Shown here piece by piece: positions 4,248 through 59,191 of a stretch of 64,000 nucleotides of DNA. The notes under the pieces are model-generated. The model saw nothing but the letters and a program-made list of their open reading frames with translations, ran no database searches and had not been told where the DNA came from. Source of the DNA: Rhodobacter capsulatus (GTDB lineage Bacteria; Pseudomonadota; Alphaproteobacteria; Rhodobacterales; Rhodobacteraceae). The translations under genes were made by a program, and so were the position numbers. The stretch covers positions 1-64,000 of the forward strand of contig NZ_SWJZ01000022.1 in NCBI RefSeq assembly GCF_005144475.1, written 5' to 3'. The first letter of the stretch is position 1. The number at the start of each line of letters is the position of its first letter.

Positions 4248-4355
4248 GTGGTCCCTGTCGTTTTTTATGGTGTCGTCTTGTTCTGGTGCCGTGGGGGATC
4301 GGACTGCGGGGTATCGGGCCTCCTTGCCGGGAAAAGCGGGTGGGGTGTCGGGCGG

Positions 4356-6074: not shown

Positions 6075-7217
6075 TCACCGTGTCAGGATCAGGCCGGCGG
6101 TGTCGGTCCACGACAGCCAGACCGTATCGCCCCAGGTGAAGGCGCGGCGCGAAAGACGCTGGGCATTGGTCATCTGCGCCTTGACGCGCTGCCCGCCCGC
6201 CAGCTCGACATGATAGGTCGAGACATTGCCGACATAGGCGATGTCGATGATCTTGCCGCCAAAGCAGTTCGCCCGTTCGGTCGAAGGCTCGGCCGAGACA
6301 TAGATCTTTTCCGGGCGCAGGGCGTAAAAGACCTTTTGGGTCTTGCGCAGGGTCTTGTCCGTCACGGCGCGGATCGGTGGTTGTCCTTGCGCGAAGGTGA
6401 TGGCGAAGGCGCCGGTTCCGGCCCGGTCGGGCGTGCCCTCGATCACGTTCACCTCGCCGACGAAATCAGCGACATAGACCGAATTCGGCGTCTCGTAGAT
6501 GCCCGCGGGTGTTGCCACCTGAATCAGCTGGCCATGATCCATCACCGCGATCCGGCTGGCGACGGTCATCGCCTCTTCCTGATCATGGGTGACGATGACG
6601 AAGGTCGTGCCGGTGCGTTCCTGAATGTCCATCAGTTCGAACTGGGTTTCCTGCCGCAGCTTCTTGTCGAGTGCCGCCAGCGGCTCATCGAGCAAAAGCA
6701 GTTTCGGCGCGCGGGCGAGCGCGCGCGCCAGGGCGACGCGCTGACGTTGCCCGCCGGAAATCTGTTCCGGCTTGCGGCGGGCGAATTTTTCCAGCCGCGT
6801 CAGGCGCAGCATTTCCTCGACCCGTGCGGCGATCAGATCGCGTTTCATCCCCGCGCGACGCAGCCCGAAGGCGATGTTGTCCCAGACATTGAGATGCGGA
6901 AACAGCGCGTAGCTCTGAAACATCATGTTGACCGGGCGTTCGTAGGGCGGCACCGGACCGATGTCGTTGCCGTCCAGAAAGATCGTCCCGGCACTTGGCG
7001 CCTCGAACCCGGCCAGCATCCGCATCATCGTCGTCTTGCCGCAGCCCGACGGGCCCAGCAGGGCGAAGAACTCGCGCGGGTAGATCGACAGGTTCAGGTT
7101 TTCGATGGCGGTATAGGTGCCGAACCTCTTCGTCACGTTCTCGAAGCGGATCAGGGGGGATGCCGCAGGATCATCCCAAGGGGCGAAGGTCGGGGAACTG
7201 GAGGTCGATGGGGCCAT
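6075..7217 (-). CDS. potG: Polyamine ABC transporter ATP-binding protein
   Basis: Starting at the ATG complementary to 7215-7217 the protein has 380 residues, as expected for PotA/PotG. It shows Walker A (GPSGCGKTT), the signature ISGGQRQRVALARAL, Walker B (LLLLDEPLAALD), a switch histidine (VTHDQEEA) and a C-terminal TOBE-like beta domain from about residue 270. It should hydrolyse ATP on the cytoplasmic face for PotH/PotI. The frame stays open far upstream, but that part is low-complexity antisense of the amidohydrolase gene and was not accepted. The ribosome binding site at the chosen start is weak. Confidence 0.93.
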   Translation of the reverse strand: MAPSTSSSPTFAPWDDPAASPLIRFENVTKRFGTYTAIENLNLSIYPREFFALLGPSGCGKTTMMRMLAGFEAPSAGTIFLDGNDIGPVPPYERPVNMMFQSYALFPHLNVWDNIAFGLRRAGMKRDLIAARVEEMLRLTRLEKFARRKPEQISGGQRQRVALARALARAPKLLLLDEPLAALDKKLRQETQFELMDIQERTGTTFVIVTHDQEEAMTVASRIAVMDHGQLIQVATPAGIYETPNSVYVADFVGEVNVIEGTPDRAGTGAFAITFAQGQPPIRAVTDKTLRKTQKVFYALRPEKIYVSAEPSTERANCFGGKIIDIAYVGNVSTYHVELAGGQRVKAQMTNAQRLSRRAFTWGDTVWLSWTDTAGLILTR

Positions 7218-7291
7218 GGGTGCTTCAGGTCTGCTCGCTGGGGAAGGAAGCCATCGCGTGCCGCCCGCCCCGGCCGGGGCGAGCAGATCAC

Positions 7292-8959
7292 TCAGGCGCG
7301 GGAAAGGGGGGAGATCGTATCGTGGGTCACCTGTCCGTCGCAGATCGTCAGGCGGGCGGTCGTCGTGGCGATCTCGGACAGCGGACAGACGGACAGATCG
7401 CGGTCGAGCAAGGTCAGATCGGCCAGCATCCCGGGCGTCAACCTTCCGCGCTCGGCTTCGTCGAAGGCAATCCAGGCGGCGGCCCGGGTGATCGCGCCAA
7501 GCGCCGCGGCCAGACCGACGCGGTGATCGCGCGCCCCCGGCCAGTCGGGACGCGCCAAGGCCGCCTCCAGCGTGAGAAAGGGAGAAAGCGGCGCGATCGG
7601 CCAATCGGTCGAAAAGACGATCTCGGCGCCGGCATCGCGCAGATCGGCAACCGCGAAAGCGGCACTTGAACGCTGCGTGCCGATCAGGTCCAGATAGCCC
7701 TCGCCTGCCTCGGGAACATGGGTGGGCTGCGTCGAGGCGACGACCCCCCACCGGGCGAACCGGCCCAGATCCCCGGCATCGACCAGTTCGATATGCTCGA
7801 TCCGGTGGCGTGCCTCGCGCCAGCCATTCTGCCGACGCGCCACTTCGAAAGCATCCAGCACCTGCCGCACCGCGCCGTCGCCGACGCAATGCACCGCGAT
7901 CTGAAACCCCAGCCGATCCGCCTCGACGACAAGGGCGCGCAGATGATCGTCGCACAGCAACGGCGCGCCGCTGTGACCGGGCAGATGGGCGTAATCCGCC
8001 ACGAGGTTCGCTGTGCCCGACTCGATCACCCCGTCGGCAAAGATCTTGACGAAATCACAGCGCAGCATCGGCGTCGCATAGCTGCGCCGCCACCGCGCGG
8101 CCTGTGCCAGCGCCTCGGGCGACATGCCTTCGGTGATCTGAAACGGCATCCTGACCCGCACCGGCAGGCCGCGGTCGCGGTCGAGTTCGGCCAGAAGGTC
8201 CAGTTGATAAAGGCTGCCATCCATGTTCTGCACCGCCGTCAGCCCCTGCGTGGCGCAATGGAGCAGCGCCTGCCAGAGCACCTCCTTGTCGGCGGCGCGT
8301 TCGGCCTCGGTCACCTCGGGCAGCTCAAGCGGCGCCTGCGCGGCGCGGGAATGGGTTTTCGCCGCCGGGTTGCAGGCGCGCACGCTGTCGATGGCGGCAA
8401 ATTCGCGCAATTCCCCGCTGGCGCGCCCGCCGGCGTCCAGAACGATCTCGGAGCCCTCGCCGACATCTGCGCCCTGCGCGATGCCGGCCAGCTGCAGCGC
8501 CGCCGTATTGGCCCAGGCGGTGTGGTAATCAGCCGCCATCACCAGCATCGGAATATCGGGGCAAATCGCGTCAAGCGCGTGTCGGTCGAGCGGTGTCTGG
8601 CCCAGGATGCGATAATCGCAGCCGCTTGCCGCGAGAAAGCTCAGGCCGGGGCGGCTGGCACGATAGGCTGCGACGGCGGCGCGGAAGTCCGTCTGCCCCG
8701 ACACGCCGACCAGCGACAGTTGCGACAGCGACAGCCCGCCCGCAAAGAGATGCAGATGCGCGTCGTTCAAGCCGGGCAGCACCGTCGCCCCGCCGGCATC
8801 GACGACACGCGTTTGCGGTCCGATATGCCTTGCGGCCGAGCCAAGACCAAGGGCGCTGACGGTCCGGCCCGAGACGGCGATCCAGTCGGCTTCGGGGGCC
8901 CCCGGTTGCTGGGTCATAACCCGTGCATTGTGGATCACGATATCGGCGAAGCTGTTCAT
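7292..8959 (-). CDS. YtcJ-like metal-dependent amidohydrolase
   Basis: The 555-residue protein fits the YtcJ-like branch of the amidohydrolase superfamily. The metal-binding DAHLH lies at residues 66-70 (His68, His70). A long insert follows, then YHTAWANTAAL, 'IAVHCVGDGAV', RHRIEH and STDWPIAPLSPF, all characteristic of the subgroup. The C-terminus returns to the small beta-sandwich (LADLTLLD). These enzymes hydrolyse C-N bonds in amides or cyclic amides. It is the first gene of the minus-strand polyamine-import run, 74 bp before potG, so an N-acyl or cyclic amine substrate is possible but unproven. Confidence 0.88.
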   Translation of the reverse strand: MNSFADIVIHNARVMTQQPGAPEADWIAVSGRTVSALGLGSAARHIGPQTRVVDAGGATVLPGLNDAHLHLFAGGLSLSQLSLVGVSGQTDFRAAVAAYRASRPGLSFLAASGCDYRILGQTPLDRHALDAICPDIPMLVMAADYHTAWANTAALQLAGIAQGADVGEGSEIVLDAGGRASGELREFAAIDSVRACNPAAKTHSRAAQAPLELPEVTEAERAADKEVLWQALLHCATQGLTAVQNMDGSLYQLDLLAELDRDRGLPVRVRMPFQITEGMSPEALAQAARWRRSYATPMLRCDFVKIFADGVIESGTANLVADYAHLPGHSGAPLLCDDHLRALVVEADRLGFQIAVHCVGDGAVRQVLDAFEVARRQNGWREARHRIEHIELVDAGDLGRFARWGVVASTQPTHVPEAGEGYLDLIGTQRSSAAFAVADLRDAGAEIVFSTDWPIAPLSPFLTLEAALARPDWPGARDHRVGLAAALGAITRAAAWIAFDEAERGRLTPGMLADLTLLDRDLSVCPLSEIATTTARLTICDGQVTHDTISPLSRA

Positions 8960-47378: not shown

Positions 47379-47452
47379 GCGGGTGTAGCTCAATGGTAGA
47401 GCCGCAGCTTCCCAAGCTGATGACGAGGGTTCGATTCCCTTCACCCGCTCCA
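47379..47452 (+). tRNA. tRNA-Gly(CCC), integration target
   Basis: The 74-nt sequence folds as a tRNA with encoded CCA: acceptor GCGGGTG/CACCCGC, D arm GCTC...GAGC, anticodon stem GCAGC/GCTGA-side with loop TTCCCAA (anticodon CCC), and T arm AGGG-TTCGATT-CCCT. Its 3' 67 bases form the left att repeat of the adjacent element, so the complete gene was preserved at this end. Confidence 0.93.
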
Positions 47453-47453
47453 A
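47386..47453 (+). repeat. attL: 68-bp direct repeat, left copy
   Basis: The repeat begins tagctcaatggtagagccgc and ends cacccgctccaa, identical to 53392-53459 and differing immediately outside (g versus t before, c versus t after). It spans the tRNA-Gly from the D arm to the CCA end plus one base. Confidence 0.95.
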
Positions 47454-47508: not shown

Positions 47509-48609
47509 ATGTCCACAAATCTGCCCACGCGTCACACCACTTTGCGCAGCGGCCACCTCTACTACAACCGCCGCGTTCCCTCTCATGCCCAGCGCGCTTT
47601 CGGCCCTCAGCTTCGGATCAGAATCAAGGATCAGGCGGAAGCGGAACGGCTGACCCGCAGGCTCAACGACCTTTGGGCCGAGGAACACGTCACCCTGCCG
47701 ATTGACCTGCAAGCCCTTCTGGCGGCCACAGCCCCCAAGCCGACAACGCTCACCACGATTGCGGCGGAATATGTCGAGGTCCGGGGGATACAGGAAAACC
47801 CCACGATCAGTTCGGCCCTGATGCTGGCGGAATTGTCGGGAGATATCGCGATCCAGAATTACAGCAGGCAGGACGCAAGGAACTTCACCCAAACGCTTCT
47901 TGAGCGGGGGATGCGGTCAACCTCGGTCAGGCGGCGGCTCAACTGCCTTTCGGCGATCTTCAACTATGCCTATGCCGAATATGAGGTGGCGGGCAGAAAC
48001 CCTTTTGCGCGCGTTCTGATCGCCCGTGAGGGGGCCGACAAGGTGCGCAGGCTCCCCTTCCTGCCAAGTGAACTTCCTGCCCTCTATGACGCCTGTATGG
48101 TCTCTGAGAAGCGGTTGCGCTGGGCGGTTCCAGTGCTTGGCGAGACGGGATGCAGGATTGCGGAAGTGATCGGGTTGCGCCGTGCTGACGTGGCGAAAGA
48201 TGCCTCACACATGGCGATCTGTCCCCATACGGCGAGACGGCTGAAAACCTCCGGCTCTGCCCGTGACCTGCCCCTTGTCGGACCTGCCCGAGAGGCAATG
48301 CGCTTGTTGCTGGCAACCTGCGAGGGCGAGTTTCTGTTTCCCGAATACCTGCGGGAGGGCGAGATACTGGCTACCCATGCGGGAAACACGCTGAACAAAT
48401 GGCTCAAGCGGCAGTCTGGCGGCAAGACGGCCCATTGCCTGAGGCATACCTTCAGGGATCGGTTGCGGGCGGTGGAGTGCCCGTTGGAACTTCTTGACGC
48501 GTTGGGAGGATGGAGTAGCGTGCAAGGCGCTGGGCGGCGCTATGGAAGCGGCTACAGTCTTGAGCAGAAGCGGGAATGGCTGCTTCGGATTTCTTTGGCT
48601 CGAATATGA
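47509..48609 (+). CDS. int: Tyrosine recombinase integrase
   Basis: The 366-residue protein has an N-terminal arm-binding region, a core-binding SAM-like domain (about 80-170) and a catalytic domain. Catalytic residues are seen in GETGCRIAEVIGLR (Arg I), HCLRHTFRDRLR (His-x-x-Arg) and GSGYSLEQK (nucleophile Tyr near residue 350). It should carry out integration and excision at the tRNA-Gly att sites, 56 bp away. The 3' end of this gene is partly repeated at 48,926-48,974. A start at 47509 is accepted because the preceding sequence is the att repeat. Confidence 0.93.
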   Translation: MSTNLPTRHTTLRSGHLYYNRRVPSHAQRAFGPQLRIRIKDQAEAERLTRRLNDLWAEEHVTLPIDLQALLAATAPKPTTLTTIAAEYVEVRGIQENPTISSALMLAELSGDIAIQNYSRQDARNFTQTLLERGMRSTSVRRRLNCLSAIFNYAYAEYEVAGRNPFARVLIAREGADKVRRLPFLPSELPALYDACMVSEKRLRWAVPVLGETGCRIAEVIGLRRADVAKDASHMAICPHTARRLKTSGSARDLPLVGPAREAMRLLLATCEGEFLFPEYLREGEILATHAGNTLNKWLKRQSGGKTAHCLRHTFRDRLRAVECPLELLDALGGWSSVQGAGRRYGSGYSLEQKREWLLRISLARI

Positions 48610-48623
48610 ATTGGGGAAGACAC

Positions 48624-48917
48624 ATGAAAAGAACCGTCGCCGCCATTGCCGTTCTTGTTGTTGCGTCGTGTGACGTATCAACTGCGACCAATGTTCACTC
48701 CTACAACGGAAATTCGGTAGAAATTGAACTCTATGGCGACACCTTCGCCTTTGGCACCGAGGAACAACAGAAGGCGCAACTTGATGTAGCCAAGGCGCAG
48801 GCTGAGGGTGTATGCGGCGGCCCCGCCCGTTTCCTCTCGCGTCGGATGGAAGAAAAGCCGCAAAACGGAATTTACTATGTTCCTGCGGCAAATCTTGCAC
48901 TCTTCAAGTGCATGTAG
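48624..48917 (+). CDS. Small predicted lipoprotein, cargo of the element
   Basis: The ATG at 48624 starts 97 residues with the signal MKRTVAAIAVLVVASC, in which V-A-S-C forms a lipobox. The mature part contains NGNSVEIELYGDTF, an acidic helix (EEQQKAQLDVAKAQAEGVC) and ends LFKCM. It resembles the neighbouring 84-residue protein in order of features: NG-x-S-V/L-E, a helix ending in VC, and a final aromatic-x-C-M/L. Two conserved mature cysteines could form a disulphide. The function is unknown. The gene follows int by 14 bp. Confidence 0.7.
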   Translation: MKRTVAAIAVLVVASCDVSTATNVHSYNGNSVEIELYGDTFAFGTEEQQKAQLDVAKAQAEGVCGGPARFLSRRMEEKPQNGIYYVPAANLALFKCM

Positions 48918-48925
48918 GGCCTCTG

Positions 48926-48974
48926 AGAAGCGGCTACAGCATAGACCAGAAGCGGGAATGGCTGATGCGGATTA
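48926..48974 (+). repeat. Second copy of the integrase 3'-end sequence
   Basis: GAGAAGCGGCTACAGCATAG... to GGCTGATGCGGATT matches the end of int (about 48544-48592) with a few mismatches. The translation GYSIDQKREWLMRI parallels GYSLEQKREWLLRI around the nucleophile Tyr. It stands directly before the second small exported-protein gene, as the original stands before the first. Confidence 0.85.
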
Positions 48975-48999: not shown

Positions 49000-49254
49000 A
49001 TGAAGCGATATGTGACTATCATTTGCACTCTGGCATTCCCCGCAATTGCACAGGAGCCAGTAGCAACGCAATTCAATGGCTATTCCTTGGAGTTATCCAT
49101 AGCGTCCACCTCTCCGATAAACTTGGCGTCCATTCCATCCGAAGCAACGATCAAGGCGGAGAAAGTGTGCAAATCTGTCGGGAAAATTCCCGAGGCGCAG
49201 GAGGTACGAAAGGTATCGGATTTCAAATATACAGCCTTCTACTTGTGCCTTTAG
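49000..49254 (+). CDS. Small exported protein, paralogue of the preceding lipoprotein
   Basis: The 84 residues start with a cleavable signal (MKRYVTIICTLAFPAIAQ). The mature part has FNGYSLELSIAS, a helix ending in AEKVCKSVG and the C-terminus FYLCL. The same order of landmarks occurs in the 97-residue lipoprotein upstream, but here no lipobox is present, so the copy would be periplasmic. The pair probably arose by tandem duplication together with the integrase tail and then diverged. The function is unknown. Confidence 0.65.
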   Translation: MKRYVTIICTLAFPAIAQEPVATQFNGYSLELSIASTSPINLASIPSEATIKAEKVCKSVGKIPEAQEVRKVSDFKYTAFYLCL

Positions 49255-49307: not shown

Positions 49308-50024
49308 ATGAAATATAAGGTCACATCCAGAATTTTTTCCGTTTTGACCGCTTACTCTTTTGCCTGTAGCGCAAGTTACGCCGATGATGCAGAATTAATT
49401 TCTGAGGCAAAAAAATGCAGCGCGCTAGATGGTGCAGGTTTCCGCATGACCTGCTACGACTCAATATTCAAAGGCAACGGAAAAGCGCTCCTCCCCGTTC
49501 CTGCGCCTGAGGCCACGCCGGAACCTCAAGCTCAAGGGACTGAGGGAGAGGAAATCATCGATCTGCGAACCGAGGTTAGCCCGGGTGCTCAGTGGCATTA
49601 CTCGGAAAAAAGGAGCGAACTTGACGGGCGCAAAGACGTTTGGCTTAGCAACGAAAGCATCAACACTCATTCCAATCAAATCGGCACCCCGGAACATGCG
49701 ACCCTTTGGTTGAGATGTCAGGGAAACACAACCTCGGTTATCTTGAGTTTCAATAGCTACATCTCGGACAATCAATCGGTCCCCTATCGCTTTGACGAGG
49801 GAAGCGTTCAAAAGATCGGAATGGTGACCGCTGCGGGTGGCGAGGGGCTTGGCTTATGGTCTGGCGGCAAATCAATTCCATTCATCAAGTCGATTTTCGG
49901 AAAATCGAAATTGGTCATATCGTTCAACTCTTACAGCAGCAGGAATATAGAGTTTTCCTTTGATGTCTCTGGGTTGAGGGATAGAATTGACAACTTGGCC
50001 GCCGCTTGCAAATGGAGTCCGTGA
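49308..50024 (+). CDS. Exported VasI/TagO-like protein
   Basis: The 238 residues begin with a signal peptide cut near ASYA-D. A Cys-containing motif follows (KKCSALDGAGFRMTCYDSIF), then a Pro/Glu linker, then a beta-rich domain with DVWLSNESI, ATLWLRCQGNTTSVI and a C-terminal FDVSGLRDRIDNLAAACKW. This pattern is that of the VasI/TagO family, first named from type VI secretion loci but also found alone. No T6SS genes are in the element, so it is probably periplasmic cargo of unknown role. GAGAGATTGAG precedes the start. Confidence 0.65.
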   Translation: MKYKVTSRIFSVLTAYSFACSASYADDAELISEAKKCSALDGAGFRMTCYDSIFKGNGKALLPVPAPEATPEPQAQGTEGEEIIDLRTEVSPGAQWHYSEKRSELDGRKDVWLSNESINTHSNQIGTPEHATLWLRCQGNTTSVILSFNSYISDNQSVPYRFDEGSVQKIGMVTAAGGEGLGLWSGGKSIPFIKSIFGKSKLVISFNSYSSRNIEFSFDVSGLRDRIDNLAAACKWSP

Positions 50025-50158
50025 GATAAATAATTTCAAATATTTCGCTCCGGCGTTCACCTGCAAGGCTTAAACGTAATTCTTTCCTGCGGACTCAGAC
50101 CCGAAAACCCGCCAAGCCGATTTCCCTTGTCAGAAATCTGGGGGGTCCCAAGCCCCCC

Positions 50159-50701
50159 TTACCCGTTCAACGTCCGATGCACGGTCATGCGGCTGATCCC
50201 CATCACCTCGGCGATCTTGTAGGTGGACAACCCCTCTTCGCTCAGTTGCTTGATTCGATCCCTGTCAATCGTTGCCTTGCGCCCCTTATACACCCCTTTC
50301 GCCTTCGCCTTGGCGATCCCCTCTGCCTGCCGCTGCTTGAGAATGGACCGCTCGAACTCGGCAACTGCCCCAAGGATCGAAAGATACAGCTTAGACGCCC
50401 CATCGCTGCCCTCTGGCGGGAAGGTCAGGTTATCTTTAACGAACCGGATCGAGACGCCTTTCGCGTTGAGTTCCTGCACAATCGCCAGAAGGTCTTGCAG
50501 ATTGCGGGCAAGGCGATCAATCGACCACACCACTACGCTATCCCCCTCTCTCACCCAACCGATCAGGTCTTGCAGCGCGGGGCGATCCTTGGCGGTGGCC
50601 CCTGAGACCTTTTCCTCAAACAGCTTGTCCACTTCCCCTATGTCTTGACGATCAAGAGACTGATCGAGGGTAGAGACGCGACGATAACCGACAGTAGCCA
50701 T
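50159..50701 (-). CDS. Serine recombinase (resolvase/invertase family)
   Basis: From the ATG complementary to 50699-50701, with TTGGAGGTG upstream, the protein has 180 residues. It starts VGYRRVSTLDQSLDRQ with the nucleophile Ser in the YRRVST motif, continues with VVWSIDRLARNLQDL and EFERSILKQRQAEGIA, and ends in a helix-turn-helix (LSTYKIAEVMGISRMTVHRTL). It should resolve or invert DNA at nearby sites; palindromic GGTAAC repeats stand directly upstream. Together with the tyrosine integrase the element carries two recombinases of different chemistry. Confidence 0.92.
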   Translation of the reverse strand: MATVGYRRVSTLDQSLDRQDIGEVDKLFEEKVSGATAKDRPALQDLIGWVREGDSVVVWSIDRLARNLQDLLAIVQELNAKGVSIRFVKDNLTFPPEGSDGASKLYLSILGAVAEFERSILKQRQAEGIAKAKAKGVYKGRKATIDRDRIKQLSEEGLSTYKIAEVMGISRMTVHRTLNG

Positions 50702-50718
50702 AGCGACACCTCCAAGGT

Positions 50719-50785
50719 GGTAACTTATGACTCTAGAGTTACCATCGCGACGGTAACATTTCAACGATTCGATCCTATTGTTACC
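50719..50785. repeat. GGTAAC/GTTACC repeat cluster upstream of the serine recombinase
   Basis: Four hexamers alternate in orientation: GGTAAC at 50719-50724, GTTACC at 50738-50743, GGTAAC at 50752-50757 and GTTACC at 50780-50785; another GTTACC lies at 50872-50877. The first pair makes a 25-bp inverted repeat over the recombinase promoter region. They may be resolution (res) subsites or autoregulatory operators. Confidence 0.6.
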
Positions 50786-51268
50786 ATCTCGGCTTGCCTG
50801 CGCAGTAACAGAAGAATGGCAACGCTGGGGTATGCCCTTGAGTGACTACCTTTCCCGCTTGCACCATCACTGTTACCCTTGGCCGATTTCAGGGGGGAGA
50901 TATGCGCTAGATCGCCATTGCCGCTTTGCAACCACCTCCAGACCGTCGAAGAACTGACCCTGGGATTTCCTGCCCCCTCATTGCCTCAACGTGCCCCTGC
51001 CGAGGGGATTAGCGAACTCTGCATTTCCAGAGACGACAGAGAGGCGCAAAACGAGGCGGATTTCCACAAGTGCTTGATATTGCTTTTATATTATGAGCGC
51101 GAGGCAAGAATCGCGGTCAAGCCGCTGAATCGAAAGGCGAATCACGTCGCAACAGCGGCGTATAATCTAACGCTTTGATTTACTTGACTTTTGACGATTT
51201 TTCTTGGTGATCTCCAGAATCCGTGCTATGGCTTCATCGCCAGTCAAGCACTGGCTCAGCACAGCTAC
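50786..51268. other. Region between the serine recombinase and the polymerase-like gene
   Basis: About 480 bp without an assignable gene. One plus-strand frame with a TTG start (50879-51178, 99 codons) remains open but shows no family resemblance and a weak ribosome binding site, so I do not call it. AT-rich sequence with TTGACT/TTGACG near 51,184-51,196 may include a promoter for the downstream gene. Confidence 0.4.
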
Positions 51269-51297
51269 CCCGCACCGAGAGGATCGCGGGCTTTTTT
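51269..51297 (+). terminator. Rho-independent terminator or attenuator 1
   Basis: CCCGC (51269-51273) pairs with GCGGG (51286-51290) and is followed by a run of six T. It lies upstream of, and reads towards, the polymerase-like gene, so it may attenuate its transcription. Confidence 0.65.
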
Positions 51298-51334
51298 GTG
51301 TCTGCACTCTAGAACTTAAAACTGCCTGCCCCGC

Positions 51335-51357
51335 CCCGCAAGGATCGCGGGATTTTT
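51335..51357 (+). terminator. Rho-independent terminator or attenuator 2
   Basis: CCCGC (51335-51339) pairs with GCGGG (51347-51351), followed by ATTTTT. The right half shares AGGATCGCGGG with terminator 1, so the two look like duplicated stems. The following gene starts 25 bp later. Confidence 0.65.
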
Positions 51358-51381
51358 CATTTCAGCAACACCGAGGAAATT

Positions 51382-52800
51382 ATGCCTAAAGATGCGAGAT
51401 CATTTCAACGAGAGTCCGATCAATTTGGGATTCTCCTTGAAGCCAGCAGCCAAGTTTACACAGACTTCGAACCCGCCAATGATTTCACTACCAATTTCAT
51501 TTTGGGGAAACTTCTCGAACTAGGCTTGGAACTCAGCCCAAAGAACAAGCACCATTATAAAAAGATTTGTGCAACCTGCGACTTTTTCGTGGCCGCGAGA
51601 TATGCGCGCAATGGTTTAATTATCTGGTTAGGCGGAAATGATGAATATGTGGGGGCGATGTATGGCGGGGTAATTGCAAGGGAAATGCGCGAGAGGTTCA
51701 TCAATGCCGGATGGATGCGAAAGGTGCAGAAATCCAGCAAAAAAGACAAGTTAGCGAGCATCTACGAAACGTCAATACCATTTGAGACAGAGCAGCTTCG
51801 ATTTAAGCCACATGGAAAAACCCAACCCGTCATTGTCAGATCGAGAAAGAAACGAGCGCCCGATGGGAAAATTACGGGAGGCAAACGTATAAGCGCGAAA
51901 AAATTCGGCGATCAATATGAAAAAGAACTGGATTTCGTCAGGGAAATTAACTCAGCAATGGCTGCAAACCCCCTCACCACCCTTGACGGGCGAGCGTTTC
52001 GGCATGGCAAGCGCATTTTTAATAATGGAAGTTTGACACAAGGCGGAAGGATGTACGGTCCTTGGCAGCAATACAGAGAAGTAGAGCGGTTGGAAATGAC
52101 AATAGACGAAGAACCCGTCTGCGAAATTGACCTAAAGGCTTCATACCTGAACCTTGCGAACATCCACTACGGAAATGGGGCACCTTTGCCACAAGACCCT
52201 TATCAAAGAATCTGGTTTGTAGAGAGAGAAATTGATCCTGACAGAAAGCATAGCATGCGAGCATTAGCGAAAAAACTCTTAAGCACTGCTGTTGGAAATG
52301 AAAGCGAAACCGGAGCACTAAACCGCACCACCTTTCCAAAAGGAAGAGAGTATTGGGACAGAGACGCAAAAAGGATGAAAGCCACCCCGATAAGAAAAGA
52401 ATTTAACCTGCCTAAGGGTGCGAAAGCAAAAGACTACTACGCAGATATTTTCCGGGCATATCCATTCCTAACAGAGGCCGAGGGAAAATGGGCGGAATTA
52501 ATGCATCTGGAAAGCCAAATCATTCTTGGCGCAGTTCACAAGTTGGCACAGGAAGGCATAGCAACCTATCCCGTACATGACTCCTTGATCTGCAAAGTAT
52601 CAGATAAAAATAGAACCATCGAAGCCATTCACGCAATGATGATGCACTATCTAGGAGCAACCTTCTATGTGGATGCGAGCATTTTAGGTCAAGATGTGGA
52701 AATTGTCCCGCCATTAGGCAACATAACTTATCAGTGCAACAGAACAGTATCAGTGGATTGGGGGGTAGATGAAGATATATCACTTATAGAAGAAGATTAA
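51382..52800 (+). CDS. Polymerase-palm-like protein of the integrative element
   Basis: The 472-residue protein is AT-rich (many aaa, att, gaa codons) unlike the host genes. No close characterised relative is recognised. Conserved-looking blocks, in order, are RIFNNGSLTQGGRMYG (211-226), CEIDLKASYLNLA (247-259), MRALAKKLLSTAVGN (292-306) and TYPVHDSLICKV (395-406). The order Asp block, Arg-x3-Lys block, His-Asp block matches motifs A, B and C of family-A DNA polymerases and T7-type RNA polymerases. The first 200 residues are basic. I infer a divergent nucleic-acid polymerase used by the element; this needs structural comparison. The gene follows two terminator-like stems. Confidence 0.6.
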   Translation: MPKDARSFQRESDQFGILLEASSQVYTDFEPANDFTTNFILGKLLELGLELSPKNKHHYKKICATCDFFVAARYARNGLIIWLGGNDEYVGAMYGGVIAREMRERFINAGWMRKVQKSSKKDKLASIYETSIPFETEQLRFKPHGKTQPVIVRSRKKRAPDGKITGGKRISAKKFGDQYEKELDFVREINSAMAANPLTTLDGRAFRHGKRIFNNGSLTQGGRMYGPWQQYREVERLEMTIDEEPVCEIDLKASYLNLANIHYGNGAPLPQDPYQRIWFVEREIDPDRKHSMRALAKKLLSTAVGNESETGALNRTTFPKGREYWDRDAKRMKATPIRKEFNLPKGAKAKDYYADIFRAYPFLTEAEGKWAELMHLESQIILGAVHKLAQEGIATYPVHDSLICKVSDKNRTIEAIHAMMMHYLGATFYVDASILGQDVEIVPPLGNITYQCNRTVSVDWGVDEDISLIEED

Positions 52801-52845
52801 TTAATTAAGAAGGAAGAGAGAGAACAGAGAGTATAGAGGAAGAAA

Positions 52846-53073
52846 ATGAGTGGAACATTTGGCGCTGAAAAGATGCGCTGCCCGCATTATACGAAACGAA
52901 TCGTCCGTGCGTCGAGGTGGGAGGGCCGATTCAAAGTAGCAGGAGATAGGCAATATTGGGTCTGCACATTAAATACCCCTCCAGAGGCTCGCACCCTTTG
53001 CCCTTACCAACCAAAGTGCGGTGGATGCACAACACGCTGTGACTTTGATGCCTTTGGGCAGACGGACGGTTAG
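52846..53073 (+). CDS. Small Cys-rich, probably zinc-binding protein
   Basis: The 75 residues start behind AGAGGAAGAAA, 45 bp after the polymerase-like gene, so the two are likely cotranscribed. Cysteines at 12, 40, 52, 58, 61 and 65 include CPYQPKCGGCTTRC, which could bind zinc. No known family is recognised. A strong hairpin terminator follows. It may be an accessory nucleic-acid-binding protein for the upstream gene product. Confidence 0.65.
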   Translation: MSGTFGAEKMRCPHYTKRIVRASRWEGRFKVAGDRQYWVCTLNTPPEARTLCPYQPKCGGCTTRCDFDAFGQTDG

Positions 53074-53090
53074 CTCTGGTGATGACACTA

Positions 53091-53118
53091 GGAGGCCCCT
53101 TAGGGGGCTTCCTTATCA
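53091..53118 (+). terminator. Hairpin terminator after the Cys-rich gene
   Basis: GGAGGCCCC and GGGGGCTTCC form a stem with a short TTA loop, followed by TTAT. It ends the unit of polymerase-like and Cys-rich genes. Confidence 0.7.
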
Positions 53119-53133
53119 TAGGTCGGGTCAAAC

Positions 53134-53259
53134 GAGGCTATTGGCGTCGATCTGGACTACACCGAGATCAGTAGCAGCGGGAACATGATCCTGCTTGTGG
53201 CCTCGGGGACGGCTGTTCGCATCGGGGACGGCTGTTCGCATCGGGTGACGGGAAACTGA
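53134..53259 (+). pseudogene. YbjQ-like (UPF0145) C-terminal remnant
   Basis: The frame reads EAIGVDLDYTEISSSGNM followed by ILLVASGTAVRIG, which is the C-terminal half of YbjQ-type proteins (G-V-D-x-D-Y-E...M-x-M-V-x-A-S-G-T-A-V). The N-terminal two thirds are missing. A 19-bp tandem duplication extends and shifts the end of the frame. It lies between the last cargo gene and attR, so it may be a relic of earlier cargo or of a captured host gene. Confidence 0.5.
53203..53240 (+). repeat. 19-bp perfect tandem duplication
   Basis: TCGGGGACGGCTGTTCGCA occurs at 53203-53221 and again at 53222-53240 with no gap. Further right, TGTCCCACAT is repeated (about 53264-53285) next to its inverse TGTGGGA. 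The cluster near attR could hold integrase arm sites, or be simple slippage. Confidence 0.75.
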
Positions 53260-53391
53260 CCCTGTCCCACATCTTGTCCCACATTGTGGGATTTGCTACC
53301 TTGTCGGCAGTTTCCTTGCGGGTGTCGGCCACGGCCAACTCGTTGGGCGGGGACGAAAGATGCCATTGAACTGAAAGGAAAATGGTATCGT

Positions 53392-53459
53392 TAGCTCAAT
53401 GGTAGAGCCGCAGCTTCCCAAGCTGATGACGAGGGTTCGATTCCCTTCACCCGCTCCAA
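53392..53459 (+). repeat. attR: 68-bp direct repeat, right copy
   Basis: Identical to 47386-47453. It lacks the first seven bases of the tRNA (GCGGGTG is replaced by unrelated sequence), so this copy cannot encode a working tRNA and marks the right end of the element. Confidence 0.95.
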
Positions 53460-54277
53460 TACCCCTAAATTCACAAAGAAGATCAGTCGCTTCGGCTTCA
53501 CGCGGTGTCGCGAAGGCACACCGGTCGGCCCGCCGCTGCACCGCTTTGCGCGGCGGTCCCCCGGCGATTGCCGCTGCGTCCCGATCCGCCCCGGCTGTCT
53601 TCGGATGTCCTCGGCCCGGGCAAGACCGCCGACAAGACCGCCACGACGGCGATCAGGATCAGGGCCAGCAGCCCCGCCATGCCGCAGATCGCCGGTTTGA
53701 AGCCGACACGGGCCGGGAAGGCGGCGCCGGGTAAAGAAGCCAAGCCCCTTCTTCGTATTTGTCGCGCTGGTCGGTGCCGTTGCCCGCGACCTCGTAAAGC
53801 AGGAAGAGCCAAGCAAGCGTCCCCGGGCCGAAGCTATAAGCCGGCAAAAGCACCAGCATCCGCAACGCGCCATCGGGAAGCATGAGGGCCGATGGGAGGT
53901 GCCTTTTTGCTGAGGGCTTCGGGCAACAGGTCGGGCCAGGCCCGGCCCAGATCGCGCACAAGATCGCCGATCAGGGTTTCGGTCTTGGGAAAGTCGGCGG
54001 CATCAAACCGCAACCGCCCCGCACGCCCTCGGCGCAAAGCGCATGAGCCGCCGGAACCCGGCCAGAGGTCCGGGGCGGCCAAGGCAGGCGAAAGCCGCGG
54101 CGGCCTCGGGGTCGGGGCGGATGGTTTATGTATTTCCTGAATGCGGGAAGTATATTCCCGGTCCAGGGAAGCTTGCAGGACGATCGGCCGACAGGTCGTC
54201 ATCGGACGGTTCGCAATGCGCCCGTTGCGGGGCGCAAGGCGGTTCCGCGGGCCCGCAGACCAGCGCCTCGGACCGCG
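53460..54277 (-). pseudogene. Degenerate minus-strand coding remnants beyond attR
   Basis: About 820 bp without an intact gene. Protein-like pieces appear in different minus-strand frames: FDAADFPKTETLIGDLVRDL (about 54,000), MLVLLPAYSFGPGTLAWLFL with YEVAGNGTDQRDKYEEG (about 53,750-53,870), and a membrane segment MAGLLALILIAVVAVLSAVL (about 53,640-53,680). They may be one decayed membrane-protein gene with frameshifts. No family was recognised. Confidence 0.3.
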
Positions 54278-56131
54278 TCAAAGCGCGGCCCGGCCCGCCA
54301 GCAGCGCGGCTTCGAAGCGGCGGGTGAAATCCTCGGCATCGCCCAGCGTGCGCTCCCAGGCGCCGGTCGCCAGATGCGCCTTGAGCGCCCCGAGCCGCGC
54401 CGGATCCGTGCCGATCGCCACCGCCAGATCCTCGTAGCCCGCCAGATCCTCGGCGATGCAGTCGGGCAGGCCGATCGCGGTCAGAAGGCTTGCCCCCATC
54501 CGGGCGGCAAAGGCCCGGCCGCGCGTGGTGATCAGCGGCAGCCCCATGCGCAACGCATCCGAGGCGATGGTGCCCGCGTTGTAAGGCGTGGTGTCGAGGA
54601 AGAGATCGGCCAAAGCCAGCCGGGCGCGGTAGCGCGCGGGATCGGTGCGGGCGGCAAAGATCAGCCGCTCGGGCGCCAGCCCCGCCGCGGCCCAGCGCGC
54701 CGTCAGCGCCGCGCGCGATTGCGGATTGTCGTCGATGATCCAGAGCACCGAACCGGGAACCCGGGCGACGATGCGGCCCCAGGCGCCCCAGACCGCCTCG
54801 GTCAGCTTGTAATGATGCGAGACGCAGGTGAAGACGATCGCGTCCTCGGGCAGGCCTTCCTCGGCGCGGGTGACGGCGGGCAGCTGCGGCACGACGCCGT
54901 CATTGGCCTGATAGCAGCCCGCGATCCGCAGCGGGCGCGGGCTGTATTCGGCCTCGGTCCCGGGCGGCACGGTGACCGCGTCGCACAGCAGGTAATCCAG
55001 CTCGGGCAGCGGCACCGGACCGATATAGCCCAGATAGGTCACCTGCATCGGCGCCGGTTTCGCCCGCAAGATCGCCGGACGCGCGCCCTTGGTCAGGCCG
55101 TTCAGATCGATCAGGATGTCGATTTCATCGGCGCGGATGCGCGCGGCGGCGGCCTCGTCGGTCATCTCCTGGATCGGCACGTGATGGTCGAGCGCCGCCA
55201 GCACCCGGGCGCGCACGTCGCTGCCATCGTCGCGGGTGGCATCGTAGCCCCAGATCTCGAAACGCGCGCGGTCATGGCGTTCCAGAAGCTCGGCGATCAG
55301 ATAGCTCATCGCATGGCGGCAGAAATCCGAAGACAGATAGCCGATCCGCAGCCGGTCGTGGGCATAGCCGCCCGCAGGGGCGAGCAGCTGCGGCGCGGCG
55401 GGCACCTTGCGGCCGATCCAGCTGGCGCAGATCTCGGCCTGACGCGCCGGATCATCGACCAGCGCCAGCGCGGCGAGAGGGCCCGCATGCTGCGCCGCCA
55501 TCGTCTCGGAAACGCCGGGCACCGCCACCTCGGTCGCCGGCCAGGCGGTGGTGCGCTGGCGGTTGTGCACCAGATGCTGGATCACGTCGGGCTGGTCGGG
55601 CTCGATGAGCAGCGCCGCCCTCGCCTCCTCGATCGCCTCGCCCAGACGGCCGCGGTCTTCCAGCAGCCGCGCCAACTGGATGTGGATCTGTCGGCGCGCC
55701 TCGGCGGGGGGCAACAGCTCGCGCCAGACGCTCAGCGCGGCATCGGGGGCGCCCGCCGCCTCGAAGGCCAGCCCGCGGCCCAGACCCGCCTGCCAGAGGC
55801 CGGGCCGCAGCCGCTGTGCCGTTTCGAGCGCCGCCGTCGCCTCGCCATGTTGCCCCGTCCGTTGCAGCGCGACACCGAGATTGTACCAGGCCGCCGCCGA
55901 GTCGCCCTTTTGCCCGTGCTGCAGAAGCCAGGCGCGATAAAGCGCCACCCCCTGCGCCGGGGCCACGGCCTCGCCGATGCTGACCAGCCCCTCGATCCCG
56001 AGCGCCGCCACCGCCCGCGCCAGATGCGGCGCCAGATCGCCCTGGGCGGTGAAGCCGCCGGGCTGGTGCAGCGCCGCGGCGATCGTCTGGGTGTCGCCGG
56101 GCAGGGGCAGGAACGGAACGACGGATGGCAA
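54278..56131 (-). CDS. TPR-containing O-GlcNAc-transferase-like glycosyltransferase (GT41)
   Basis: I place the start at the TTG complementary to 56129-56131 because AGAAGGAG lies 7 bases upstream; the frame is open 27 codons further but that part is low-complexity. The 617 residues contain tetratricopeptide repeats (about 80-175, first unit AAWYNLGVALQRTGQHGEA) and a GT41 catalytic region: LRIGYLSSDFCRH (261-273), KPAPMQVTYLGYIG, and DLFLDTTPYNAGTIASDAL (509-527), which correspond to the UDP-GlcNAc site and catalytic loops of OGT/SPINDLY enzymes. GT41 enzymes glycosylate Ser/Thr or Asn of proteins. It is divergent from a Ser/Thr-rich repeat-protein gene, its likely substrate. Confidence 0.88.
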   Translation of the reverse strand: MPSVVPFLPLPGDTQTIAAALHQPGGFTAQGDLAPHLARAVAALGIEGLVSIGEAVAPAQGVALYRAWLLQHGQKGDSAAAWYNLGVALQRTGQHGEATAALETAQRLRPGLWQAGLGRGLAFEAAGAPDAALSVWRELLPPAEARRQIHIQLARLLEDRGRLGEAIEEARAALLIEPDQPDVIQHLVHNRQRTTAWPATEVAVPGVSETMAAQHAGPLAALALVDDPARQAEICASWIGRKVPAAPQLLAPAGGYAHDRLRIGYLSSDFCRHAMSYLIAELLERHDRARFEIWGYDATRDDGSDVRARVLAALDHHVPIQEMTDEAAAARIRADEIDILIDLNGLTKGARPAILRAKPAPMQVTYLGYIGPVPLPELDYLLCDAVTVPPGTEAEYSPRPLRIAGCYQANDGVVPQLPAVTRAEEGLPEDAIVFTCVSHHYKLTEAVWGAWGRIVARVPGSVLWIIDDNPQSRAALTARWAAAGLAPERLIFAARTDPARYRARLALADLFLDTTPYNAGTIASDALRMGLPLITTRGRAFAARMGASLLTAIGLPDCIAEDLAGYEDLAVAIGTDPARLGALKAHLATGAWERTLGDAEDFTRRFEAALLAGRAAL

Positions 56132-56419
56132 GGGCAAACTCCTTCTGGATGCCGACCTTCGCAGAGGCCTCGGCGCAAGCCTCGCATCGCAAGGTAAATC
56201 CGCGGTAAACAACGGCCGGTTTCGCGCCTCAAAGCCGGGGTTGAATTGAATTCGACCTAATTTTCTTCGGGTCCGATGGCCCGGAAGGGGCGGATTTAAC
56301 GGCTCCGTAACGGCTTGTGCGCATCGTCCGATGTCATGTGTGGCCGAGAACCGGCCGATGCCTGTCGGGGGAACGCCCCGACGGAGCAGATTGTTGATCC
56401 TTCAACCCGGGAACGTACC

Positions 56420-59191
56420 ATGACGGCCATTTCCAATATGACGACGACCCAGATTGCCGCGCTGGAGACGGCGGCAATCGCGGCTCTCACGACGGCGGAT
56501 GTCGCCTCGATGTCTTCCGCCCAGCTCGGGGCGCTGACCAGCGACCAGCTGCCGGTGCTCGGCACCGCCAACCTGCGCGTGCTGACCTCGACGCAACTCG
56601 CCGGGCTGACGGCGACCCAGGTTCCGACGCTGCTTGACACCCAGGTCGTGGTGCTGACCACCGCGGGCATCAAGGGGCTGAGCGCGGCGGCGATCGGCGC
56701 GCTGACCTCCGATCAGGCCGCCGTGCTGTCCTCGAGCCAGATCGCCGCGCTGACCACGACGCAGCTTCCCAACCTCACCACGACCACCCTTGCGGGGCTG
56801 ACGGCGACCGGCGTCGGCGGCCTTTCCTCGGCGCAGATCACCGCCCTGAGCAGCGCCGCCGCGGCCGCGCTGACCGCCGAGCAGATTGCCGGCCTCACCA
56901 CGTCCGCCGTCAAGGGTCTGGAATCGAGCGAACTTGCCGCCTTCACCTCGGCGCAGCTGGCGGGCTTCACCACCGCGCAGATCGCCGCGCTCGGCTCGAC
57001 CCAGCTTGACGATCTGACCACCACCCAGGCGCCGCTCCTGAGCACCGCGCAGGTCGCCGCGCTGAACGCCACGGCGATTGCCGGGCTCAGCTCGGGCTTC
57101 ATCGGCGCGCTTGACGGCGCCCGGATCGGCGCGCTGTCGTCGAAACAGGTCGCGGCGCTGACGTCGACGCAGATCGACGACATCACCACCACCGCGCTCA
57201 CCAGCCTGACCACCACGGCGGTGAAGGGGCTCGGCTCGGCCCAGGTGAGCGCGCTGACCAACGCGCAGGTGGGTCAGCTGAGCACCGCCCAGATCGCCAA
57301 TCTGAGCGCCACCGCCGTCAAGGGCCTGTCCTCGGCGGATCTGAACACCAACATGAGCTCGACCCAGGTCGCGGCGATGACCACGGCGCAACTGGCCGCG
57401 CTGTCCTCGGCGCAGCTGGCGGGCGTCAGCACGGCGACCGTCGCCGGGCTGACCTCGACGCAGATCGGCGCGCTCAGCGCCACCGGCATCGTCGGCGTCA
57501 CCACGGCCACCGTCGGGGCGCTGACCTCGGCGCAGGTCAAGGGGCTGACCGACAAGCAGCTGGCGGTCATGACCACGGGCCAGATCGCGGCGATCGGCAC
57601 GGCGGCCATCGACGATCTGAGCACGGCGGCGATCAAGGGCCTCGGCTCGGTGCAGGTCGGTGCGATGACCACGACCCAGCTTGGCCAGCTGACCTCGACG
57701 CAGATCGGCCAGCTTTCGACGGCCGGGATCAAGGGGCTCGCCGCGGCGGATCTGACCGCGCTCAGCTCGACGCAGATCGGCGGTCTGACCTCGACGCAGA
57801 TCGCGACGATGACGACCGCCCAGGTCGGCGGCATCGAAAGCGCCGATATCGCCAGCCTGACCACCGCGGCGGTCAAGGGCCTGACCTCGGCGCAGATCGC
57901 GGCGCTTTCCGATGCCCAGGCGGCGGCGCTGACCTCGCTTCAGATCGGCTTGCTCTCGACCGCGGCGGTCAAGGGGCTCAGCACGGCCGACATGGCGGCG
58001 CTGACCACGGCCGAAGCGCAGGCGCTGACCTCGGCACAGATCGGCGTGCTCAGCTCGGCGCAGGTCCGGGCGATGACCACGGCGCAGATCGCCGCGCTTG
58101 GCACGGCGCAGATCAAGGGCTTCACCGCCGGCAACATTGTTGGCTTCGAAACCGCCGACATCGTGGCGCTGACCACTGCCCAGGCCGCGGCGCTGAGCTC
58201 GGCCCAGGTCGCCGCCCTGAGCACGGCGCTGGTCGCGGCGATGGAAACGGCCGATCTCGCCAAGCTTTCGGCCGCGGCCTTCAAGGGCTTCACCGCGGCG
58301 CAGGTCACCGCGCTGACCACGGCGCAGGCGGCGGCGATCGGCACCGATCAGATCGCGCAGATCACCACGGCGGCGATCAAGGGGCTCGAGAGCGCCGATA
58401 TCGCCGCGCTCTCCAATGCCACGCTGGCGAAGCTGACGACGGCACAGATGGGCGCCCTCAGCTCGGCGCAGCTGGCCGGTCTGACCACCGCGCAGATCAA
58501 CGGCGTGCTGACCACGGCGCAGGTCAAGGCGCTTGGTGCGGCCGCTCTGGCGGGTCTTGGCACGGATGACATCGTGGCGCTGACGACGGATCATGCGGCC
58601 GCGCTGACCTCGGCGCAGGTGGCGGCGCTCAGCACCGGGCAGATCGCCGCGCTTGAGCTTGCGGATTTCGCCAAGCTGGCGACGGCTGCGATCAAAGGCC
58701 TGAGCTCGACCCAGCTCGCGGCTCTGAGCACGTCGCAGATCGACGCCCTGACCACCGATCAGGCGAAGGCTCTGACGGCGACCCAGGTTGCGACGCTGTC
58801 GACCGCCCAGATCGGTGCGCTCGAAAGCCAGGACTTCGGGGCGCTGACTTCCGCGGCGGTGAAGGCGCTGACCACGGTTCAGCTGGCGGCGCTGACCTCG
58901 GAACAGGGGGCGGGCTTCACGACGGCGCAGATCGCCAGCCTGACGAGCGCGCAGATCGGGGCGATGTCCGTCGCGGCGCTGAACGAGCTGACCGCGGGCG
59001 CCGTTGCGGCGCTGGACACCAAGCAGGTCACGGCGCTGACCACCGCCCAGCTTTCGGGCCTTGACGCGGGCATGCTCGGGGCGATGGAAACGGCGGATCT
59101 CGCCGCGCTGACCTCGACCCAGACGGCGGCGTTCAGCACGACGCAGCTCGGCTATCTGAGCGACGAACAGCGCTCGGCGCTGCTGCTCTGA
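56420..59191 (+). CDS. Octapeptide-repeat protein, Ser/Thr-rich, 923 aa
   Basis: From the ATG at 56420 residues 8-921 consist of about 114 tandem octads with the consensus [ST]-[TS]-A-Q-[IV]-x-A-L; two units (SSADLNTNM and TTAQINGVL) have nine residues. Position 8 is almost always Leu, position 6 aliphatic, positions 1-2 Ser/Thr and position 5 often Gln replaced by Ala-V/I-KGL in every few units. No Cys or Trp is seen, nor an N-terminal signal peptide. RTX glycine-rich nonapeptides are absent. The type I secretion genes nearby suggest C-terminal-signal export. A solenoid-like surface or adhesin protein is inferred. Confidence 0.85.
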   Translation: MTAISNMTTTQIAALETAAIAALTTADVASMSSAQLGALTSDQLPVLGTANLRVLTSTQLAGLTATQVPTLLDTQVVVLTTAGIKGLSAAAIGALTSDQAAVLSSSQIAALTTTQLPNLTTTTLAGLTATGVGGLSSAQITALSSAAAAALTAEQIAGLTTSAVKGLESSELAAFTSAQLAGFTTAQIAALGSTQLDDLTTTQAPLLSTAQVAALNATAIAGLSSGFIGALDGARIGALSSKQVAALTSTQIDDITTTALTSLTTTAVKGLGSAQVSALTNAQVGQLSTAQIANLSATAVKGLSSADLNTNMSSTQVAAMTTAQLAALSSAQLAGVSTATVAGLTSTQIGALSATGIVGVTTATVGALTSAQVKGLTDKQLAVMTTGQIAAIGTAAIDDLSTAAIKGLGSVQVGAMTTTQLGQLTSTQIGQLSTAGIKGLAAADLTALSSTQIGGLTSTQIATMTTAQVGGIESADIASLTTAAVKGLTSAQIAALSDAQAAALTSLQIGLLSTAAVKGLSTADMAALTTAEAQALTSAQIGVLSSAQVRAMTTAQIAALGTAQIKGFTAGNIVGFETADIVALTTAQAAALSSAQVAALSTALVAAMETADLAKLSAAAFKGFTAAQVTALTTAQAAAIGTDQIAQITTAAIKGLESADIAALSNATLAKLTTAQMGALSSAQLAGLTTAQINGVLTTAQVKALGAAALAGLGTDDIVALTTDHAAALTSAQVAALSTGQIAALELADFAKLATAAIKGLSSTQLAALSTSQIDALTTDQAKALTATQVATLSTAQIGALESQDFGALTSAAVKALTTVQLAALTSEQGAGFTTAQIASLTSAQIGAMSVAALNELTAGAVAALDTKQVTALTTAQLSGLDAGMLGAMETADLAALTSTQTAAFSTTQLGYLSDEQRSALLL

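Follow-up and report, generated by a model that had tools for sequence, protein, structure and literature searches.

Iyer, Abhiman and Aravind described in 2008 the TV-Pols, minimal relatives of Pol A and of T7 RNA polymerase (RNAP) that are found in mobile elements (PMC2579912). These proteins of 400-600 aa have an arginine on a hairpin, two aspartates, a further aspartate in the fingers and an RxxxK motif, lack a nuclease domain and were predicted to have both primase and polymerase activity (PMC2579912). A subset has an extra N-terminal domain; it often occurs with a gamma-delta resolvase, a lambda-type integrase or a transposase, and near restriction-modification operons. A D5-like helicase is fused or adjacent only in a subset and is not required of all, and several Rhodobacterales are included in the alignment legend (PMC2579912). 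More recently Yutin et al. (2024) described divPolA2, a phage PolA whose palm looks active and whose N-terminal domain had no match, for which the passages considered give a variable gene neighbourhood, a Dali Z of about 12 to mitochondrial RNAP and a suggested role as repair DNA polymerase or RNA polymerase (PMC11348598). The divPolA2 section of that paper draws no link to the TV-Pols, which the passages considered name once, as background. According to a literature search the term divPolA2 is confined to this one study and its preprint, and in the few papers searched, most of them represented by excerpts, no link between divPolA2 and the TV-Pol elements was found.

Among integrative elements that carry their own polymerase, SCCmec encodes the A-family polymerase CcPol, which primes with its partner MP; to the knowledge of the authors in 2020 no other TV-Pol had been characterised (PMC7581432, passages on CcPol). 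On its own CcPol carried out only primer extension in the part of the later study considered (PMC10061031). The CcPol-MP or PolA-SSB elements resemble the element described below in combining an A-family primase-polymerase, here a predicted one, with recombinases in an integrative element, and CcPol is likewise without exonuclease domains; most SCC-like PolA-SSB elements also carry conflict genes such as restriction-modification, as far as the excerpts go (PMC7581432, PMC10061031). CcPol-MP, however, has an OB-fold partner and a helicase, neither of which was recognised here, where the polymerase has an N-terminal domain of its own. Pipolins are alike in their tRNA-gene site, recombinases, att direct repeats and possession of their own polymerase, which is self-priming, and restriction-modification genes are common in them; their piPolB is, though, a family-B polymerase amid otherwise variable gene content, whereas the fold here is that of family A (PMC7385651, in the passages considered). 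The PICMI satellites are small integrative elements with an integrase, a regulator and a putative primase, deletion of which lowered the copy number (PMC10803314, in part). The small marine elements of PMC12324425 are unrelated, judging from the part of that paper considered.

The window analysed here is a stretch of 64,000 nucleotides from Rhodobacter capsulatus. Within it two exact 68-bp direct repeats, 6,006 bp apart, bound an element of about 6.0 kb with the following features.

47386..47453, forward strand: attL; the 68-bp core falls within the intact tRNA-Gly(CCC) gene (47379-47452), at its 3' end
47509..48609, forward strand: tyrosine recombinase (integrase) adjoining attL; Pfam Phage_integrase, E 6.9e-15
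49308..50024, forward strand: VasI-like cargo protein, 238 aa; Pfam VasI, E 2e-13, and phrog_1848, E 4e-29
50159..50764, reverse strand: small serine recombinase (resolvase), 201 aa; Pfam Resolvase, E 2.9e-35
51186..51381, forward strand: leader of the polymerase gene, with two similar 42-nt repeats, each a CCCGC...GCGGG stem plus a T run
51382..52800, forward strand: polymerase of the TV-Pol/divPolA2 type, ATG start, 472 aa
52846..53073, forward strand: short ORF of 75 aa with cysteines, directly following the polymerase gene; it matched no family
53143..53391, forward strand: right-end stretch that aligns with the related element L031 at about 92% identity, as far as 53463
53392..53459, forward strand: attR, where the 68-bp core recurs without change; a partial tRNA, matched by the Rfam tRNA model over its positions 8-63

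A reading made from the sequence alone had put a divergent polymerase-like protein in a 6-kb integrative element, and the exact repeat of tRNA-Gly together with the tyrosine recombinase adjoining the tRNA gene bears out the element. Its G+C is 0.52, and that of the polymerase gene 0.45, between flanks of 0.67 and 0.70. The resolvase gene points away from that of the polymerase. No helicase was recognised among the eight element ORFs scanned, neither an SSB partner for the polymerase nor a replication origin was identified in the element, and D5_N had no match in the organism's own genome. The name VasI comes from type VI secretion. Two small ORFs (48576-48917 and 49000-49254), whose starts read as signal-peptide-like and which had no family match above the cut-off, precede the VasI-like gene. 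Downstream of a small cargo ORF the end of the integrase gene occurs again (48929-48973; 45 nt, 93% identical to the end of the L031 integrase), which would suit an insertion of cargo that duplicated this end. Outside the element a 958-aa protein of short LTTAQIAAL-type repeats (56315-59191) stands beside a reverse-strand gene that reads like an O-GlcNAc transferase (54278-56212); the two may be a surface protein and the enzyme that glycosylates it.

The tRNA-Gly site is used by insertions within the genus. The left flank was matched over at least 426 of 553 bases in 14 of the 18 same-genus genomes (own included), and the 68-nt core, allowing up to six mismatches, was present in four of six regions taken from these genomes, and twice in one of the four. 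A simple empty site was not found among the six regions. One of them, L167, has four pieces of the right flank past the tRNA, in order and at 77-81% identity, with the element absent between; they begin about 1.1 kb beyond the tRNA. Beyond tRNA-Gly, L166 and L167 apparently carry different integrase genes, on a reading of their sequence. The tRNA-Gly of the genus looks like an insertion hotspot.

The 472-residue ORF on which the sequence-only reading had rested is present, with an ATG start, and the four strings it had quoted all occur in the order it gave: NNGSLTQGGRMYG (residues 214-226), CEIDLKASY (residues 247-255), MRALAKKLLSTAVGN (residues 292-306) and YPVHDSL (residues 396-402). The product is laid out as follows.

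About residues 22-147: N-terminal domain, winged-helix-like
Residues 172-195: thumb helix, preceded by a linker
Hairpin: carries R223
Palm: D250 and D400
Fingers: D272-x-Y274 and R293xxxK297

Motifs A, B and C of the palm and fingers follow in order as D, RxxxK and HD. Conservation in relatives of Asp250 and of His399-Asp400 had been named as decisive for the assignment, and D250, K297, H399 and D400 proved invariant in all 36 aligned sequences (the polymerase and 35 relatives), R293 being kept in 35 of the 36. These sequences form alignment A7, from which ten of 45 longer ORFs were omitted as duplicates, near-duplicates or oversized (L047, L048 twice, L050, L055, L057, L061, two copies of L072 and the 775-aa L058), as were the short L035, L042, L060 and L074. 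A second alignment, A1, has 27 rows and omits the short L021, L024 and L030. As had been claimed, no exonuclease is recognisable; neither this nor any other domain scored above the cut-off for the polymerase in Pfam or NCBIfam. The single-protein search gave no PDB sequence match, and the sole strong PHROG match was to phrog_4756, of unknown function (E 5e-27), which is matched by all 27 members of A1.

Structure prediction followed by a comparison of the Foldseek type had been proposed as a check, and it yielded the palm fold of a family-A polymerase. The AlphaFold (AF2) model, built from the 36 aligned sequences, has a pLDDT of 85.8 and a pTM of 0.81. Foldseek returned 353 PDB matches, nine of them at E ≤ 1e-3; the best 50 of the 353 are all family-A DNA polymerase entries, with TM-scores that are low (0.20-0.32). 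VIA gave Z 13.1 to 5dkt, the apicoplast polymerase apPol (14% identity and an rmsd of 4.1 over 235 residues); Z was 12.7 for Taq and 11.9 for T7 DNA polymerase, and 207 of 998 chains had Z ≥ 8. T7 RNAP was not in the best 50 VIA rows, which is no evidence against kinship with it. Among predicted viral proteins the best 11 (400-450 aa) match the model at E < 1e-12; most are nameless, two are called 'uncharacterized' and one DNA polymerase. A BFVD match to Rheinheimera phage Barba31A had an E of 2e-14.

Profile-profile comparison with PolA and with single-subunit RNA polymerases, also proposed earlier, gave low P-values for both. With hhalign the A7 profile matched a Pol I profile at P 1.8e-4 over 202 columns, at a probability of only 48%, and a profile of eight T7-like RNA polymerases at P 1.2e-4 with a confident core of 47 columns, at a probability of only 55%; 12 decoys, reversed or column-shuffled, all had P ≥ 0.15. 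The Pol I profile held 21 sequences, namely E. coli Pol I, T7 gp5 and 19 from sampled genomes, the row L114 having been dropped because its longest frame of 1,093 aa was out of line. A longer low-threshold hhalign alignment pairs R223 with R668 of Pol I, D250 with D705, D272/Y274 with D732/H734, R293/K297 with R754/K758 and H399/D400 with H881/D882, while R236 is out of register with R682. The earlier assignment of motifs A, B and C thus stands in register with Pol I, its catalytic residues conserved in the 36 sequences, and predicted fold and profile alignment agree on the palm-domain superfamily: the 472-residue product belongs, as a polymerase, to the Pol I / T7 RNA polymerase superfamily.

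Less is offered by database structures for the N-terminal domain. Residues 22-147 folded alone had a pLDDT of 93.3, and Foldseek gave no match for them at E ≤ 1e-3. The best VIA Z was 5.7, with 37 of 999 chains at Z ≥ 5 and none at Z ≥ 8; among the best 50 rows winged-helix regulators predominate (CodY, Fur and MarR types, and cullin WH), beside some proteins of the ribosome and others. The way helices and strands follow one another in the model also fits a winged helix. These weak matches suit a winged-helix-like domain, for which DNA binding is predicted from the model.

The polymerase shares with the TV-Pols the same minimal palm and fingers, hairpin Arg, fingers Asp and RxxxK, without a nuclease. 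R223 lies in a modelled strand of the hairpin (E210-213, E223-225), D250, D400, D272 and R293xxxK297 occupy the remaining diagnostic positions, and the gene sits in a mobile element with a resolvase and an integrase. There are also differences. The N-terminal domain of TV-Pols was predicted to be all-helical (PMC2579912), whereas here it is modelled as winged-helix-like alpha/beta; their thumb is a two-helix antiparallel structure and that of the model is one long helix at 172-195; and, unlike the subset linked to a D5 helicase, this polymerase is without one, D5_N being absent from its own genome. The only named TV-Pol compared, that of phage Ma-LMM01, did not match the family profile at E ≤ 0.1. 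TV-Pol as defined may therefore be broader than the present family, and the link to the bacterial TV-Pol subset rests on features, hosts and neighbours and not on a direct match. In contrast, AUR84708.1, the modelled example of divPolA2, was matched by the family profile at E 2.2e-34, so that divPolA2 and the 472-aa polymerase make one family. In the passages considered divPolA2 is a phage protein found beside a regular DNA polymerase, in barbaviruses and others, as against a 6-kb integrative element here (PMC11348598). Through the match to AUR84708.1 the TV-Pols of bacterial mobile elements and the divPolA2 proteins of tailed phages appear to be related.

When the A1 profile was run against PDB sequences there were 14 matches at E ≤ 10, the top ten being mitochondrial RNA polymerases (E 0.0027-0.007), followed by Pol nu (E 0.042); two transcription regulators were matched on the N-terminal part (E 0.47 and 0.5) and the remaining match was one unrelated chain. 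Pfam RNA_pol, for which no match was listed for the polymerase itself (E limit 10), was matched by two of the 27 A1 members (best E 0.012), and phrog_414, 'RNA polymerase', by one of the 27 (E 0.0014). The mitochondrial RNAPs as best PDB sequence matches, like the RNA_pol and phrog_414 matches, speak for the main rival explanation, a dedicated single-subunit RNA polymerase whose N-terminal domain would read element promoters and which would transcribe element or phage genes. Such an enzyme, also raised for divPolA2 by Yutin et al. in the passages considered (PMC11348598), is unlikely here, though it deserves to be taken seriously.

Comparison of active-site residues in the 36 family rows, the 21 Pol I rows and the eight RNAP rows bears directly on this choice. 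The last residue of GRx[Y] is Tyr in 29/36 family rows (Phe in five) and 8/8 RNAP rows, as against 0/21 for Pol I, and in DxY the Tyr is found in 36/36 and 8/8 with His in 21/21 Pol I rows. Glu at the fifth position after the motif-A Asp is the steric gate of DNA polymerases; in the polymerase of the element this position is Y255. It is present in 20/21 Pol I rows and replaced by Gly in 8/8 RNAPs, while the family has His in 25 rows, Gln in six, Tyr in three, Asn in one and Ala in one, with Glu in 0/36. After the HD of motif C stands Glu in 20/21 Pol I rows, Ser (six) or Asp (two) in RNAPs, and Ser (29), Cys (five) or Ala (two) in the family. The motif-B Tyr, present in 20/21 Pol I and 8/8 RNAP rows, is mostly Asn (25) or Gly (six) in the family, with Tyr in two. 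Alignment A1 (27 rows) concurs, having one Gly and no Glu at the steric-gate position. As aligned, the active site is mixed, with GRxY, DxY and HDS/C as in single-subunit RNA polymerases: three of the class-separating positions are RNAP-like, one is of neither class and one position common to both is mostly lost. The features of DNA polymerase I, that is the 3'-5' exonuclease region, the steric-gate Glu and HDE, are absent from the polymerase, and the residues expected of a T7-like RNA polymerase, Gly at D+5 and the motif-B Tyr, differ in it.

A dedicated RNA polymerase is thus favoured by its GRxY, DxY and HD[S/C] and by the missing steric-gate Glu; against it are the Gly at D+5 of all eight RNAPs, where the family has H, Q, Y, N or A, the widespread loss of the motif-B Tyr, a length of 472 aa that is about half the 883 aa of T7 RNAP, and the finding that no repeat recurs upstream of several genes within 50000-53500. 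The same residues weigh on a second rival, a repair or gap-filling DNA polymerase that would extend existing primers only, aiding integration or replication of the element or phage. The rows of the fold search are DNA polymerases, CcPol alone only extends primers in the part considered (PMC10061031) and a repair role was suggested by Yutin et al. (PMC11348598, likewise in part), but the steric-gate Glu is absent in 36/36 rows and the RNAP-like DxY is present in 36/36. Moreover, since the host has its own PolA, a 6-kb element would presumably gain little from another repair enzyme, and this explanation is regarded as distinctly improbable.

Relatives are widespread. A match to the polymerase at E ≤ 0.001 was found in 46 of 394 sampled genomes of the family of the window (own included), and 30 viral loci and three plasmids carry relatives; tailed phages contribute 100 records at E ≤ 1, of which 85 are of Vibrio. 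Scans of viral sequences with the polymerase alone (P0001), with A2 and with A4 found no relative. An integrase lies within 8 kb of the polymerase in 20 of 30 bacterial loci (window included) and a small serine resolvase in 17, both recombinases being present in 15; within the stretch available ten loci are without integrase and 13 without resolvase, some of the loci being short contigs. In 18-kb control windows from polymerase-holding genomes there were none of either (0/20 and 0/20). Neighbouring ORFs, the starts of which were not curated, were scanned against Pfam (244 of 261; 14 with a Resolvase match) and PADLOC (129), and several restriction-modification genes were among this second batch of 129. 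One Sphingomonas plasmid has in a row an integrase, an HTH protein, the polymerase, Vsr, an HNH protein, a cytosine methyltransferase and one more ORF. D5_N was found in four of 21 genomes and on the contig of the polymerase in one of the 21. The company of integrase and resolvase points to replication, which argues against a dedicated RNA polymerase.

The phage records have a separate DNA_pol_A match in six of 13 and DNA_pol_B in one, with neither in six, a figure to be read with the proviso that a viral record may be a fragment. A regular DNA polymerase elsewhere in seven of the 13 records rules out the family as the sole phage replicase, and such company in those seven records would also suit a repair polymerase. 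One viral contig, L044, carries two different polymerases of the family, at 3087-4394 and 7816-8832. Another, of 21.4 kb (L072/L174; L174 9699-20000), holds three copies of a unit in the same direction, 99.5-100% identical over 3.1-3.7 kb, the main genes of which encode a 215-aa tyrosine recombinase and a 422-aa polymerase. A spacing of 3,347 bp separates two neighbouring units, and the third is set off by 1.3 kb more; ORFs beside them look like what we take to be terminase, portal and capsid genes. The triple unit may stem from tandem insertion, from a concatemer or from an assembly effect.

An element in another genome of the genus, L031, has the same att site and related ends. Alignment of the two gives 83% identity for the integrase gene, 85% for the resolvase gene and 92% for the right end, and the leader region is 86% identical over 379 nt (51021-51399 against 9641-10018 of L031). 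Where the window has the VasI-like cargo, L031 reads as having a transposase insertion and an Mrr-like restriction gene (6295-8050). Of the 196 nt of the leader 181 are identical, compared with only 854 of 1,416 nt in the polymerase gene, the products of which are 49% identical. The polymerase gene would seem to have been either exchanged or fast-evolving while the frame around it stayed stable, a pattern reminiscent of the swapping of polymerases reported for phages in the part of PMC11348598 considered. So poor a conservation of coding sequence beside a well-kept leader might also be expected of a catalytically dead or decaying relative serving only as a DNA-binding regulator. A dead enzyme, however, would be expected to lose its catalytic residues, and both aspartates and K297 are kept in 36/36 diverse rows and R293 in 35/36; no stop occurs in the matches listed from the 394 sampled family genomes, and this explanation is very improbable.

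The leader itself shows apparent pairing over the ribosome-binding region. Its folding was not significantly better than that of shuffles (z -1.46; 16 of 200 shuffles were as good), and a strict terminator pattern, which in the window and L031 hits only the second of the two repeats, preceded none of the 22 other polymerase genes. The latter count rules out leader attenuation as a rule for the whole family, and on both grounds no claim of regulation is made. Among the 394 sampled family genomes the leader is found only in its own, bar a 28-nt stretch in one. It is speculation that the tandem terminator-like leader might keep expression of the polymerase gene low in the integrated state.

The protein is best regarded as a TV-Pol/divPolA2-type polymerase of minimal size whose catalytic set is intact, and its job is probably to prime, and perhaps to carry through, DNA synthesis of the element. 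The replicase, primase-polymerase or transcriptase of the sequence-only reading coincide with the published options (PMC2579912, and PMC11348598 as far as excerpted), and no measured activity for the branch to which the polymerase belongs was found in the literature searched. The tyrosine recombinase would excise the element, whereupon the winged-helix-like domain would bring the polymerase to an origin on the circle, where it would make a primer de novo. Because GRxY, DxY and HD[S/C] are present and the steric-gate Glu is absent, the enzyme is suggested at least to tolerate ribonucleotides. Extension of the primer would then fall to host DNA polymerase III and a host helicase, there being no recognised helicase among the eight element ORFs scanned and no D5_N match in the host genome, and the serine resolvase would resolve multimers arising from replication or recombination.

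Priming is favoured by the recurrence of the integrase-resolvase-polymerase set in relatives (both recombinases in 15/30), and precedents are offered by the TV-Pol prediction (PMC2579912) and by priming by CcPol-MP in the passages considered (PMC7581432). Against it, the proven primase CcPol requires MP, going by the same passages, and neither a helicase nor an SSB partner was recognised here; phage copies often accompany a regular DNA polymerase (7/13 records); and the motif-B Tyr is Asn or Gly in 31 of 36 rows. A stronger version is put forward tentatively, and is itself doubtful: the polymerase may be a self-sufficient, one-polypeptide origin-binding primase on the T7-RNAP-like side, in which the winged helix would stand in both for the helicase or SSB partner that CcPol has and for the domain with which T7 RNAP binds promoters. 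Priming would be with ribonucleotides, and a recombinase and a polymerase alone, as in the 3.35-kb units, would make a minimal replicon.

Polymerases of this kind have already been described and are widespread, so that a divergent polymerase alone is no discovery. What is new compared with the literature searched, as far as the passages go, is the link between TV-Pol and divPolA2, the winged-helix-like reading of the N-terminal domain, the RNAP-leaning residue comparison and the repeated two-gene units. The polymerase clearly exemplifies a kind of enzyme that is known but has been little tested, and the residue comparison leads to a direct test between DNA polymerase, primase and RNA polymerase. 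TV-Pol and divPolA2 look like parts of one common family, for which the small att-bounded 6-kb element is a tractable test system. If the self-sufficient primase were true, one enzyme would be common to phages, as divPolA2, and to tRNA-integrating elements, and it would represent an extant intermediate linking primase, DNA polymerase and RNA polymerase.
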